From an uncultured Acidobacteriia bacterium (GTDB taxonomy: Bacteria; Acidobacteriota; Terriglobia; Bryobacterales; Bryobacteraceae): DNA of 36,766 nt. Positions within the stretch are counted from its first letter, which is position 1. The number at the start of each line of letters is the position of its first letter. Of this stretch, positions 25,590 to 33,617 are shown piece after piece. The stretch spans positions 1 to 36,766 of the forward strand of contig CAIQWJ010000095.1 in NCBI GenBank assembly GCA_903875575.1, given 5' to 3'. The notes under the pieces are model-generated. The model did no database searches and was not told the DNA's origin. It worked only from the letters and a program-made list of their open reading frames with translations. The translations under genes and the position numbers were made by a program.

Positions 25590-27260
25590 TTAGTTTTCGG
25601 TAACTGCGAGGCGCTGGTTGGATTTCACGTTGTCCAGCTTTTGGTGCTTGCCGCTGGGCCAGTCGATTTCCACACTGGTGACTGTGGCATCTTTGCCAAG
25701 CCCGAACGTTAGAGCGAGATCGCTGGCGGAGCAGTAGCTGGAGCCGCTGTGTACGGTCTGCGTCTGTTTGCCCTGCGCACTGGTCACGCGCACGGCGGCA
25801 CCGATGCCGTCGCGGTTGCTCTTCGTGCCGGTGAGCTTCAGTTGCAGCCAGTGATTGCGATTGCCGCCGTCATTGCGATAGAGCCGCGCAGGGCCGTTGT
25901 TGTTGGAGACGACGATGTCGAGATCGCCGTCGCCATCGAAGTCACCATAGGCGGCGCCACGGGCGACCAGGGGCTCGCTGAAGGCACCGTTGACGGGCTC
26001 GAACTTGCCAGCGCCCACGTTGCGGAACAGCAGCGGCAACTGGGCGTAGTGGATTTTCGGCTGCACGCGGGCGATCTCTTCTTCGAGGTGGCCGTTGGCG
26101 GCGAAGATATCGGGTTGCCCATCGAGATCGTAATCGAAGAAGAAGAGCCCGAAGGTCAGATTCAGGAGGCTGGCGCGGCCCACCGGCGAGCGGGGAGCTT
26201 CGTCCACGAACAGGCCTGTGCCTTCGTTGTGATAGAGGCCCAGCATTTGGTTCGAGAAGTTGCCGACGATGAGGTGCTGCCTGCCGGAGCGATCATAATC
26301 CACGGCGTCGGTACCCATCGCACCGCGGGCTACGCCGTCTTCACCGAAGGCAACACCGGCGGAGAGAGCCTCTTCTTTGAAGGTGCCGTTGCCGAGGTTG
26401 CGATAGAGCTTGTTGGGCTGCGTATCGTTGGCGACAAACAAGTCAGGCCAGCCATCGCCGTTGTAATCGAACACGGTGACGCCAAGCGATTTGCTGGTCT
26501 GCTCGCCCAGGCCGGCCTTTGTGGTGACGTCTTCGAATTTGCCGTTGCCCAGATTGTGATAGAGCTTCGCGGGGGTACCTTTGTAGGATTCCGGAGTGCA
26601 GTACGACTTCGCGGAACCGTCAAGAGAGCACCAGAGATCGGTTTGGGGCGTCCATTGGACATAGTTGCCAACGAAGAGATCGAGCTTGCCGTCCTTGTCG
26701 TAATCGAACCAGGCAGCGCTGGAGGCAAACTGGGCGTTGGCGATGCCGCTCTCTTTGGTGACGTCGCGGAACTTGCCGCCACCCTCGTTGTGAAAGAGGT
26801 GATCGCCGCCCACTGCGGTGATATAGACGTCGTCACGGCCATCGTTATCGTAATCGCCGATGGTCACGCCCATGCCGTGCACTTCGATATCGAGACCGCT
26901 GCCATGAGTGGCATCAGTGAACGTGCCGTTGCCGTTATTGTGATACAGCGCGGCGGTGGTGTGGCGGCCTTTCGCGATCCAGTCGCTGCCGTTGATCAGC
27001 AGAATGTCGGGCTTTCCGTCGCCGTCGGCATCGAAGAAGGCGACGCCGGAGCCCATGGTTTCGGGCAGCCATTTCTTGCCGGTGCGGCCGGCGTTGTGAG
27101 TGAAGTGAATCCCGGCGGCGGTGGTGATGTCGGTGAAGCGAACCGGTGCTGACGGAGCGTCAGCGGCCCGCGACTCGCGTGGCGTGCCCGCCAGCCACAG
27201 CAACGGCAGCAGGGCGAGGGGCGTAATCAGCAACGTGGTCGTGAATCTGTTGTCTCTCAT
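25590..27260 (-). CDS. CRTAC1-family protein (FG-GAP repeats, ASPIC/UnbV C-terminus)
   Basis: A 556-residue exported protein. A signal peptide (TTLLITPLALLPLLWLAG) is followed by about seven FG-GAP/VCBS calcium-binding repeats with DxDxDGxxD loops: DADGDGKPD, DYDNDGRDD, DYDKDGKLD, DYNGDGWPD, DYDLDGQPD and DFDGDGDLD. Between about 470 and 556 lies an ASPIC/UnbV domain (LQLKLTGTKSNRDGIGAAVRV, SGSSYCSASDLALTFGLG, IDWPSGK). The fold should be an integrin-like beta-propeller acting outside the cytoplasm; the role is unknown. The ATG has GAGGA close before it and overlaps the 3' end of the cytochrome/TPR gene by 101 nt, so translation is probably coupled. A clear paralog lies at 31920-33617. Confidence 0.93.
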   Translation of the reverse strand: MRDNRFTTTLLITPLALLPLLWLAGTPRESRAADAPSAPVRFTDITTAAGIHFTHNAGRTGKKWLPETMGSGVAFFDADGDGKPDILLINGSDWIAKGRHTTAALYHNNGNGTFTDATHGSGLDIEVHGMGVTIGDYDNDGRDDVYITAVGGDHLFHNEGGGKFRDVTKESGIANAQFASSAAWFDYDKDGKLDLFVGNYVQWTPQTDLWCSLDGSAKSYCTPESYKGTPAKLYHNLGNGKFEDVTTKAGLGEQTSKSLGVTVFDYNGDGWPDLFVANDTQPNKLYRNLGNGTFKEEALSAGVAFGEDGVARGAMGTDAVDYDRSGRQHLIVGNFSNQMLGLYHNEGTGLFVDEAPRSPVGRASLLNLTFGLFFFDYDLDGQPDIFAANGHLEEEIARVQPKIHYAQLPLLFRNVGAGKFEPVNGAFSEPLVARGAAYGDFDGDGDLDIVVSNNNGPARLYRNDGGNRNHWLQLKLTGTKSNRDGIGAAVRVTSAQGKQTQTVHSGSSYCSASDLALTFGLGKDATVTSVEIDWPSGKHQKLDNVKSNQRLAVTEN

Positions 27261-31923: not shown

Positions 31924-33617
31924 GTGACGGGTTGACGCGGCGTTCGTTTATGGGGGCTGGTGCGGCGTCGCTGCTACTGGGCGCGCCCCCGTCTCCGCTC
32001 AAATTTCGTCTCACCGATGTAACCGCAGCAGCGGGCATTGATTTTCGCCACAATAGCGGTGCCTACGGTGCGAAGTATCTGCCGGAGACGATGGGTTCCG
32101 GGTGCGCGTTTCTCGATTACGATAACGACGGCTGGCTGGATATTCTGTTGATCAACGGAGCCGACTGGCCCGGTCATGTACGGGGCGGTCCCAGCACGAT
32201 GCGGCTGTATCGAAACAATCGCAACGGCACTTTCACGGACGTCACGAAGGCCGCCGGGCTGGCCGTGGAGATGTATGGCCTTGGCGTGGCAGTGGCCGAC
32301 TACGACAACGACGGCTTCCCGGATATCTACGTCACAGCGGTGGGGCAGAATCGATTGTTCCACAACACGGGCCGCGGCACGTTCATCGATGTAACGGACC
32401 ACGCGGGGCTGGGTGGCCGTAGTTCTTTCAGCACGTCGGCACTGTGGTTCGATTTCGATCGCGACGGCCTGCTGGATCTGTTTGTCTGCAACTACGTACG
32501 CTGGTCGCCGGAACATGATGTGTTCTGCAGCATTGACGGGAAGAGCAAGTCATACTGCACACCGGAGGCTTATCATGGCTCCACCTGCTGGCTGTTTCGG
32601 AATAAGGGCAATGGAACTTTTGAGGATGTGACGGCGAAGAGCGGGATCTTCGACGCCAGTTCGACGGCACTGGGTGTGGCGATGCTGGACGACGATCGCG
32701 ACGGCTGGCCGGATCTTGTAGTGGCGAACGATACGCAGCCCAACAAGCTTTATCGCAACCTTCGCAACGGGACGTTTGAAGACGTGGGTGTGCACGCGGG
32801 CGTGGCGTTCAGCGAGGATGGGCGGGCGCGCGCGGGCATGGGAATCGATGCCGCCGATTTTGATAACTCCGGTGTGGTCGGAATTGCGATCACAAACTTC
32901 GCCGATGAAATGATTGCGCTGTACCGGCAGGGGCGCGGCGGGGTGTATGCGGACGCGGCGGTGGGTGCAGGAATTGGGCAGCCTTCGCGGTCGCGGCTGG
33001 GCTTCGGCTGCTCATTTGCAGATATCGATCTTGATGGTCACCTGGATCTACTCGCGGTGAATGGACATATTGATGAAAGCGTCCGCAATAATCCTGGGCG
33101 CATGCCAGGCGCTAAAGGTGGGTACGCGCAACCGCCGCATCTGTTTCTGAACGATGGCAAGGGTGTGTTTCGCGATGTGGCCGCGACTGCCGGTGGCGGC
33201 TTCGCCACACCGAAGGTTGGCCGCGGTCTGGCGTATGGAGACTTCAATCGCGATGGTGCGCCGGATGTGCTGATGACGACGAATCAGGGGTCGGCATATC
33301 TTTATCGCAATGAGGTGACGGGCGGGAACCGGTCGATTCGGTTTCATCTGCGCGGGACGAAATCGAACCGGGACGCGATAGGTGCGATAGTGCGGGTTAC
33401 AACGTCGGAAGGCACGCAGTCGCGCATGGTGAAGACGGGGTCGAGCTATTTGTCGCAGTCGGAATTGGCGGTGACGTTTGGAATCGGACGGCAGGAGAAG
33501 GCGAACCGGGTAGTGATGGAGTGGCCGAGCGGGGCGACGCAGGAGTTTAAGGATGTGAAGCCCGGCGGGTACAAGTGTACGGAAGGCGCGGGATTGGTGG
33601 CGCTGGGGGGGTATTGA
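31920..33617 (+). CDS. CRTAC1-family protein with Tat signal (FG-GAP, ASPIC/UnbV)
   Basis: A 565-residue paralog of the protein at 25590-27260. The N-terminus is a twin-arginine signal (LTRRSFMGAGAASLLLG), unlike the Sec-type signal of the paralog. FG-GAP repeats follow: DYDNDGWLD, DYDNDGFPD, DFDRDGLLD, DDDRDGWPD, DIDLDGHLD and DFNRDGAPD. The ASPIC/UnbV domain begins near 460 (IRFHLRGTKSNRDAIGAIVRV, TGSSYLSQSELAVTFGIG, MEWPSGATQEF). Shared stretches such as FLDYDND, YLPETMGSG and PNKLYRNL show recent common ancestry. It is coupled to the response regulator gene by ATGA. It may be the sensed or controlled extracytoplasmic component; this is inference. Confidence 0.93.
   Translation: MSDGLTRRSFMGAGAASLLLGAPPSPLKFRLTDVTAAAGIDFRHNSGAYGAKYLPETMGSGCAFLDYDNDGWLDILLINGADWPGHVRGGPSTMRLYRNNRNGTFTDVTKAAGLAVEMYGLGVAVADYDNDGFPDIYVTAVGQNRLFHNTGRGTFIDVTDHAGLGGRSSFSTSALWFDFDRDGLLDLFVCNYVRWSPEHDVFCSIDGKSKSYCTPEAYHGSTCWLFRNKGNGTFEDVTAKSGIFDASSTALGVAMLDDDRDGWPDLVVANDTQPNKLYRNLRNGTFEDVGVHAGVAFSEDGRARAGMGIDAADFDNSGVVGIAITNFADEMIALYRQGRGGVYADAAVGAGIGQPSRSRLGFGCSFADIDLDGHLDLLAVNGHIDESVRNNPGRMPGAKGGYAQPPHLFLNDGKGVFRDVAATAGGGFATPKVGRGLAYGDFNRDGAPDVLMTTNQGSAYLYRNEVTGGNRSIRFHLRGTKSNRDAIGAIVRVTTSEGTQSRMVKTGSSYLSQSELAVTFGIGRQEKANRVVMEWPSGATQEFKDVKPGGYKCTEGAGLVALGGY

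Follow-up and report, generated by a model that had tools for sequence, protein, structure and literature searches.

We analyzed a locus on the 36,766-nt contig CAIQWJ010000095.1 (assembly GCA_903875575.1) from an uncultured Acidobacteriia bacterium of the Bryobacteraceae; the whole contig is called the window, and the genome to which it belongs is G000. On the minus strand, the locus encodes a membrane cytochrome, CYT (27160-29985), and a Sec-exported CRTAC1 protein, CRT1 (25590-27260), which combines an FG-GAP propeller with an ASPIC/UnbV tail. Divergent to this pair, the plus strand encodes a NarX-type sensor kinase, HK (29967-31301); a NarL-type response regulator, RR (31294-31923); and CRT2 (31920-33617), a CRTAC1 paralog with a twin-arginine signal. 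An earlier description made from the letters alone, which we call the sequence-only reading, had reported these five genes, with overlaps of 8 nt between HK and RR, 4 nt between RR and CRT2 and 101 nt between CYT and CRT1, as well as five CxxCH motifs in CYT. Open reading frame calls and inspection of the sequence confirmed all of these, and the N termini of CRT2 (twin-arginine) and CRT1 (Sec-type), as we read them, agree with its assignment of the two proteins to Tat and Sec export. The description was incomplete: a gene for a 461-residue amidase-signature enzyme, AMID (24195-25580, minus strand; PF01425, E 7e-97), begins 9 nt past the end of CRT1 and is also part of the locus.

A cytochrome gene paired with a CRTAC1 gene

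The CYT-CRT1 pair is the conserved unit of the locus, and its conservation is strong and beyond chance. We compared CYT homologs from 80 named contigs of relatives and from 40 loci across the phylum, the latter chosen from the 94 genomes, among 396, that gave a profile match of E 1e-60 or better. Genes in the compared loci were called by a simple home-made method, and three contigs that carry two names each (L147/L041, L148/L114 and L149/L064) are counted twice in the synteny of the relatives, the upstream-gene box scan and the count of twin-arginine signals. In 74 of the 80 named relatives, a CRTAC1 gene lies directly downstream of CYT on the same strand; five contigs have no room for one and a single locus lacks it. 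Phylum-wide, the arrangement recurs in 28 of 40 loci, 17 among the 20 strong matches and 11 among the 20 weak ones (one of the latter has no room). As the pairing is found across the phylum, it is probably old. Among the 64 of 80 named loci in which the junction could be scored, the two genes overlap in 50 and by exactly 4 nt in 38, so that the 101-nt overlap in the window is atypical. The frequent 4-nt overlap is a sign of coupled translation. The sequence-only reading had proposed that each CRTAC1 protein partners with its neighbor, a proposal that stands at the level of gene linkage. That CYT and CRT1 form a complex is, in our judgment, a good bet.

CRT1 matches FG-GAP_3 and UnbV_ASPIC (PF07593; 79.3 bits against a cut-off of 23.4), which places it in the CRTAC1 family, and its sequence contains no CxxCH motif. 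An AlphaFold2 model (pLDDT 88.9) has murine CRTAC1 (PDB 9etn) as its best PDB match. The two share the same fold over most of their length (TM 0.72; sequence E 2e-24) and differ in that CRT1 is bacterial and encoded with a cytochrome. We know of no function common to both.

The annotated CYT gene begins at an ATG at 29985. Because this codon lies inside the 5′ end of HK and beyond the dyad described below, the true start probably lies no higher than 29868. A structural model of the protein (mean pLDDT 79) contains five long hydrophobic helices near the N terminus (residues 44-165; 29491-29856), a heme region, a β-sandwich carrying an invariant GH, and a C-terminal TPR arm (residues about 719-887; 27325-27831) that we propose as the docking site for CRT1. 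Pfam matches are to TPR, in agreement with the modeled helices of the arm, and to Cytochrome_C554 (PF13435; residues 217-300, 39.9 bits against a cut-off of 20.8). The pentaheme domain spans residues 217-416 (28738-29337). Its heme Cys and His columns are conserved in 40 of 40 rows of the phylum alignment, with a plain CxxCH count of five in 34 rows and four in the other six. His233, His346, His435, and His548, which are likewise unchanged across all 40 rows, probably act as distal ligands of the c-type hemes, judging from this alignment. Foldseek searches with the CYT model gave solely TPR-type matches among the 50 listed, and thus no structural match for the heme domain, while a sequence search of the PDB gave one weak heme-protein match among the 60 shown (cytochrome c552, 5ze8; E 3e-5).

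Two histidines in the membrane region, His84 and His134, do not vary in any of the 68 close rows or of the 35 filled rows of the 40-row phylum alignment, a conservation that reaches down to about 30% identity. In the model, each is the tenth residue of its own helix (helices 2 and 4), and by topology both would therefore lie near the periplasmic side. CYT thus has two invariant histidines at like depth in two transmembrane helices, a sequence feature expected of b-heme quinol dehydrogenases, a functional class that would also show a bound b-heme and quinol oxidation. The five membrane helices and this histidine pair suggest a bis-histidine b-type heme and a quinol link, and we lean toward such a b-heme with a connection to the quinone pool.

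Other genes accompany the pair in many relatives. A gene fusing TPR and CRTAC1 regions (TPRCRT; median about 1000 residues) lies directly upstream of CYT in 57 of the 80 named loci; it is missing from this position in the window, and a homolog is present on another contig of the genome (C25). AMID, which has no visible export signal, shares the locus and strand of CYT in 16 loci listed (L043 and L140 are one contig, and not all are adjacent), and lies divergently beside HK in seven relatives that lack CYT at that place. One of these, G006, has CinA, amidase, kinase, regulator, and CRT2 in that order (L145, G006:C97, 1231-10934), with CinA upstream as in the window and the amidase divergent to the kinase. 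CYT and CRT1 are absent from this site, and in this respect the pair resembles a cassette. In seven loci (L077, L078, L088, L090, L099, L116, and L117), common gene clusters lie downstream of CRT1. They contain ketoacyl synthases, HMG-CoA reductase, an FAD enzyme, and a patatin/cNMP protein (Pfam, on L116), as well as acyl-carrier-like and SDR-like genes recognized by eye and, in some loci, extra CRTAC1 paralogs.

The kinase, the regulator, and CRT2

HK matches HisKA_3 and HATPase_c. It has two membrane segments (residues about 11-31 and 193-211) and a predicted periplasmic sensor region, for which the match to 4HB_MCP_1 falls just below the cut-off (26.7 against 27 bits). RR combines a Response_reg receiver with a GerE/LuxR helix-turn-helix domain. 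CRT2 resembles CRT1 in its Pfam matches (FG-GAP_3 and UnbV_ASPIC, PF07593; 64.9 bits against a cut-off of 23.4) and begins with the twin-arginine signal TRRSFMG. A strict twin-arginine motif is present in 12 of 22 CRT2 sequences (two contigs counted twice) compared to 0 of 72 CRT1 sequences, and most of the other CRT2 starts printed hold a double arginine by eye. CRT1 and CRT2 are 52% identical, whereas CRT2 and a paralog elsewhere in the genome share 42% and the four other genomic CRTAC1 copies match CRT1 or CRT2 at 38-42% over their best segments. Of the six PF07593 genes in this genome, CRT1 and CRT2 are therefore the most similar of the pairs compared.

The order of these genes is well kept. 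Kinase and regulator are adjacent in all 24 loci of relatives examined, and CRT2 directly follows the regulator in 18, often with the same 4-nt overlap. In the remaining loci, CRT2 precedes the kinase (one, in G059) or is not at the kinase locus (four, in G014, G017, G033, and G057), and in one the contig ends. That CRT2 acts as an exported co-sensor for HK is a tentative suggestion. Convergent to CRT2, positions 33627-34988 of the window encode a protein with a TonB C-terminal domain (Pfam).

To relate the two arms, we scored HK and CYT across 121 genomes of the family. Both were present in 57, HK only in 12, CYT only in 26, and neither in 26, such that HK occurs in 57 of 83 genomes with CYT versus 12 of 38 without it (p 1.7e-4, uncorrected for kinship). 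The arms therefore co-occur in related genomes, the absence of which the sequence-only reading had named as a ground for abandoning its proposal. They are less often neighbors: in 10 of the 57 genomes, HK and CYT share a contig and are at most about 10 kb apart (same-contig pairs were selected by eye from match lists), eight of them divergently. A fixed five-gene divergent block was rejected, as the kinase-adjacent state changes seven times, at scattered positions, in a tree of 78 cytochromes built with FastTree. The two-component/CRTAC1 genes form a second operon, which only sometimes adjoins the cytochrome operon.

An operator-like box that tracks the kinase

Between HK and CYT lies a strandless, operator-like dyad, AATAGTGGAAAAATACTAGG (29867-29886), with the core TARTR-N6-YAYTA. 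After a common dyad was seen in kinase upstream regions, a comparison from which L147-L149 were omitted, eight kinase-linked sites were aligned by eye to build a matrix. Scores in 177 other intergenic regions served as the null (95% level 5.0, 99% level 9.9, maximum 25.6), and the 99% level was taken as the threshold when other loci were scanned.

In a first set of genomes, the box was present at the start of the cytochrome operon, in windows selected by hand, in 18 of 22 genomes with the kinase and 0 of 20 without it. Five of the 18 had supplied training sites; without those, the counts are 13 of 17 and 0 of 20. In a second set, in which stretches of up to 5 kb were scanned, the box was found in 11 of 20 genomes with the kinase and 0 of 20 without it. 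Sixty column-permuted matrices, which form the only null for this set in place of random 5-kb stretches, gave means of 0.6 and 0.7 of 20 and a maximum of 3 in the kinase-bearing set. One locus of this set (L313) scored away from the projected operon start, and several of its contigs, judging from equal lengths, had already been scanned as named loci, so that the state of the box was known there before that of the kinase. With both sets combined, 29 of 42 kinase-bearing genomes have a box at the cytochrome operon or no more than 5 kb upstream of it, versus 0 of the 40 that lack the kinase. The tree provides one close comparison: G018 lacks both kinase and box, whereas its sisters G014 and G017 have both.

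Among near loci with an unlinked kinase, 14 of 23 had the box upstream of CYT, and 8 of 49 had it upstream of TPRCRT. In far loci, the counts were 6 of 36 with CYT first and 0 of 2 with TPRCRT first. The matrix scan gave no box at five lone TPRCRT genes, and none was seen by eye, or among the matrix matches listed, in kinase upstream regions beside AMID. Above the random-window threshold, there was no box upstream of CRT1-type (0 of 102), CRT2-type (0 of 102), or AMID (0 of 26) genes, counts in which most of the stretches are coding and both CRT queries match the same genes.

Within the 6-Mb genome of the window, the 18-base consensus with up to two mismatches has a single match, at 29867, and a looser pattern, searched without mismatches, likewise matches there alone. 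When the pattern is relaxed further and one mismatch allowed, there are four matches (three besides 29867), versus seven for a reversed control. Over the family, the loose pattern and its reversed control are also similar in number, so that the pattern alone defines no large regulon. Two other genomes, G529 and G471, each have three exact matches to the loose pattern, and their regulator may have more targets.

The association of box and kinase is what we computed; that RR binds the box is our inference from it. We consider it likely that RR acts through the sequence at 29867-29886 to control the cytochrome operon. A general promoter element was judged unlikely, since none of the 40 operons in kinase-less genomes carries the box. 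A different dyad, GATAT...ATATC, was seen by eye at the start of five CYT operons without this kinase (L276, L278, L283, L284, and L286, in G042, G045, G051, G052, and G056), and may mark where another regulator binds at this position.

A candidate redox module and its alternatives

The domain families at this locus are already known; as a type, it is a two-component-controlled multiheme redox module. In the working scheme that we favor, CYT and CRT1 would be co-translated partners. CYT would sit in the inner membrane through its five helices, probably with one b-type heme between His84 and His134, and would trade electrons with the quinone pool and relay them through the five periplasmic c-hemes. 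Its C-terminal TPR arm would dock the CRT1 propeller, and CRT1 would present the terminal redox partner or substrate. On sensing an extracytoplasmic cue, HK would phosphorylate RR, which would bind the dyad and control transcription of CYT, CRT1, and the amidase gene and, where the arms are adjacent, perhaps also its own operon. CRT2 would probably be the sensing-side twin of CRT1. The gene pairing, the co-occurrence of the arms, and the kinase-tracking box are computed results; regulator binding, the b-heme, the quinol link, docking, the direction of electron flow, and the role of CRT2 are predictions. We regard the overall reading of the locus as a regulated extracytoplasmic redox module as somewhat probable. 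The sequence-only reading had also envisaged a signal-controlled redox system. This idea gains from the CYT-CRT1 pair, the HK-RR-CRT2 order, the co-occurring arms, and the kinase-tracking dyad, and loses in that the five-gene arrangement is not conserved and occurs in few lineages.

Several results weigh against the regulated-module reading. Eleven of the 40 phylum-wide CYT genes have room for a CRTAC1 gene directly downstream and lack one, and the far CYT members L219, L220, L221, L233, and L234 lack aligned histidine-bearing helices. In the window itself, the start of CYT is uncertain (29985 versus at or below 29868). In one family, f3, 17 of 18 genomes have no close kinase homolog, though most carry CYT. 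Among kinase-bearing genomes, the scored regions lack the box in 4 of 22 of the first set and 9 of 20 of the second, and when only the operon start is considered in the latter, the counts fall to 8 of 18 versus 0 of 11 placeable loci. One intergenic region of the null reaches 25.6, and the box also scores at 4 of 54 near internal CYT starts (far, 0 of 2). Across the genomes of the family, the loose pattern and its reversed control occur at similar frequencies. Finally, a test of box against kinase that corrects for kinship is small, with about four pairs that agree, none that disagree, and two undecided (p 0.125).

One alternative is that two unrelated operons stand head to head under separate control, with the box a shared promoter element or a relic of kinship. 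Adjacency is indeed patchy (10 of 57 genomes), CYT-CRT1 occurs without the kinase in 26 of 83 family genomes, the half-sites look to us like weak -10 elements, and the kinship-corrected test is not significant. However, the box lies upstream of CYT (14 of 23) or TPRCRT (8 of 49) even where the kinase is elsewhere, and both half-sites are conserved in L103, whose upstream gene runs in the same direction. A general promoter would also be expected to persist in genomes without the kinase, in which 0 of 40 operons pass. We think this explanation improbable. A rival that concerns the role of CRT1 has greater weight, although we would still not bet on it: CRT1 may be a calcium-dependent scaffold or a lectin-like, ligand-binding propeller by which the cytochrome is anchored to the cell surface or to another TPR/CRTAC1 assembly. 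The CRT1 model is similar to murine CRTAC1, with a weaker likeness to propeller lectins and integrin heads; the protein lacks CxxCH; and CRTAC1 neighbors more often have TPRs (29 of 69) than multiple CxxCH motifs (7 of 37, five of which are CYT). A scaffold of this kind is compatible with the pairing and regulation and would alter only what CRT1 does. On the other side, pairing with a heme protein is nearly constant in the CRT1 subfamily, and another CRTAC1 gene of this genome lies between two genes for heme proteins resembling hydrazine synthase subunits.

The module could also run in reverse, with CRT1 and CYT oxidizing a periplasmic substrate, for example from the pathway of the coupled amidase, and passing electrons into the quinone pool. 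The amidase gene directly follows CRT1 or is divergent to the kinase in several relatives, and the Nitrosomonas cytochrome c554 takes electrons from an oxidizing enzyme. Against this, the amidase has no visible export signal and Pfam scans of the neighbors recognized no dehydrogenase gene, and we rate this direction as rather doubtful. About equally speculative is a broader form of the favored scheme, in which the locus represents an undescribed class of acidobacterial respiratory or redox complex, a five-helix b-heme/pentaheme cytochrome whose TPR arm docks exchangeable CRTAC1 propellers. CRT1 would then be its redox or substrate subunit, and CRT2 an exported co-sensor to the kinase that controls CRT1 through a dedicated operator.

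Known systems resemble parts of this locus. CYT shares a CxxCH-rich periplasmic heme domain with the cytochrome c554 family (PF13435). The Nitrosomonas protein has four hemes, whereas CYT fuses five with five helices bearing two invariant histidines, a β-sandwich, and a TPR arm, and was therefore not assigned as cytochrome c554 proper. In its proposed working, a membrane quinol link feeding periplasmic c-hemes, CYT is similar to NapC, NrfH, and CymA. These proteins anchor their heme domain with one N-terminal transmembrane helix, compared to five hydrophobic helices in CYT, which led us to reject this identity, and none of their profiles is among the Pfam and NCBIfam matches listed for the locus. 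An extracellular electron transfer conduit of the MtrCAB type has an outer-membrane porin gene beside the cytochrome gene. No porin gene was found among the ten proteins scanned in the window at 21892-36711 (genes further left lie outside the scan), and this candidate was also set aside.

The HK-RR pair resembles NarX-NarL-type systems in having a HisKA_3 kinase with a predicted periplasmic sensor and a GerE regulator, and differs in that its operon ends in an exported CRTAC1 gene. The best NCBIfam profiles were MctS/MctR, UhpB, UvrY/GacA, and NarX, all far below their equivalog cut-offs. Assignment as NarX/NarL (76 of 578 and 126 of 250 bits) or MctS/MctR (134 of 700 and 173 of 300 bits) was rejected, as was that of HK as a TorS-type kinase with a periplasmic co-sensor (16.7 of 676.5 bits), which serves as a mere lead for the role of CRT2. 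For the fused cytochrome architecture, the standing CRTAC1 partner, and the kinase-tracking box, we found no equivalent in the open-licence literature searched (no preprints and few subscription papers).

In the parts of PMC12758564 consulted, homologs of hydrazine synthase flank a CRTAC1 gene in Planctomycetota and Desulfobacterota; the word stem Acidobacteri has 0 occurrences in the main text of that paper. The same order of alpha-like, CRTAC1, and beta-gamma-like genes occurs in the genome of the window on contig C73, here in an acidobacterium. At this site (L007, G000:C73, 4663-12811), a gene cut by the contig end matches HZS_alpha (62.6 bits against a cut-off of 26.6) and is followed by the CRTAC1 gene; a propeller protein with two CxxCH motifs and a MauG-like match below cut-off; and, by eye, a substrate-binding protein gene. 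In the portions of PMC12758564 consulted, the system differs from the window locus in having other heme proteins, no TPR arm, and no two-component arm. The five-gene locus has no domains of hydrazine synthase subunits, the HZS_alpha match being just at C73, and was not classified as hydrazine synthase.

To determine how CRTAC1 genes are placed in general, we sampled 37 of them from 31 relatives, taking one row in four, as far as row 148, from a listing of the best-scoring matches; some of the sampled regions overlap (L235/L239 and L245/L262). Seven of the 37 lie beside a gene with at least two CxxCH motifs, and in five of these the neighbor is CYT. Counted by neighbor, 8 of 70 genes next to CRTAC1 encode multiple CxxCH motifs, compared to 0 of 32 controls (p 0.054). 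With CYT removed, the counts are 3 of 65 and 0 of 32 (p 0.55), and the idea that CRTAC1 genes are generally partners of cytochromes was rejected. TPR proteins were scored for 69 of the 70 neighbors, the omitted neighbor of L239 being the CRTAC1 gene sampled as L235. Of these, 29 were TPR proteins, versus 2 of 32 control genes (p 2e-4), and when nine neighbors are excluded as CYT or, judged from their size, as the fusion, at least 20 of 60 remain (p 0.004). The sequence-only reading would have been undermined had CRTAC1 genes stood equally often beside unrelated genes; this is partly so, since 30 of 37 are not beside a multi-CxxCH gene, yet the neighbors are not random, given the preference for TPR genes. 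Together with the TPR arm of CYT and the TPR-CRTAC1 fusion, this preference is why we propose docking through TPRs.

CRTAC1/UnbV genes reach up to 56 copies per genome, and the family extends to mammals (9etn). ASPIC/UnbV matches number 43 in G038 and 56 in G040, compared to 6 in the genome of the window, and the parts of the open-licence literature consulted give no function for the bacterial proteins. The cytochrome partner, the TPR neighbors, and the candidate operator make a role for CRTAC1 directly testable, and the operator gives experiments an easy route to the signal controlling the module. One worked CYT-CRT1 example would aid the annotation of many genes and, should the broader form of the scheme hold, CRTAC1 proteins would serve generally as exchangeable partners for proteins with TPRs or hemes.

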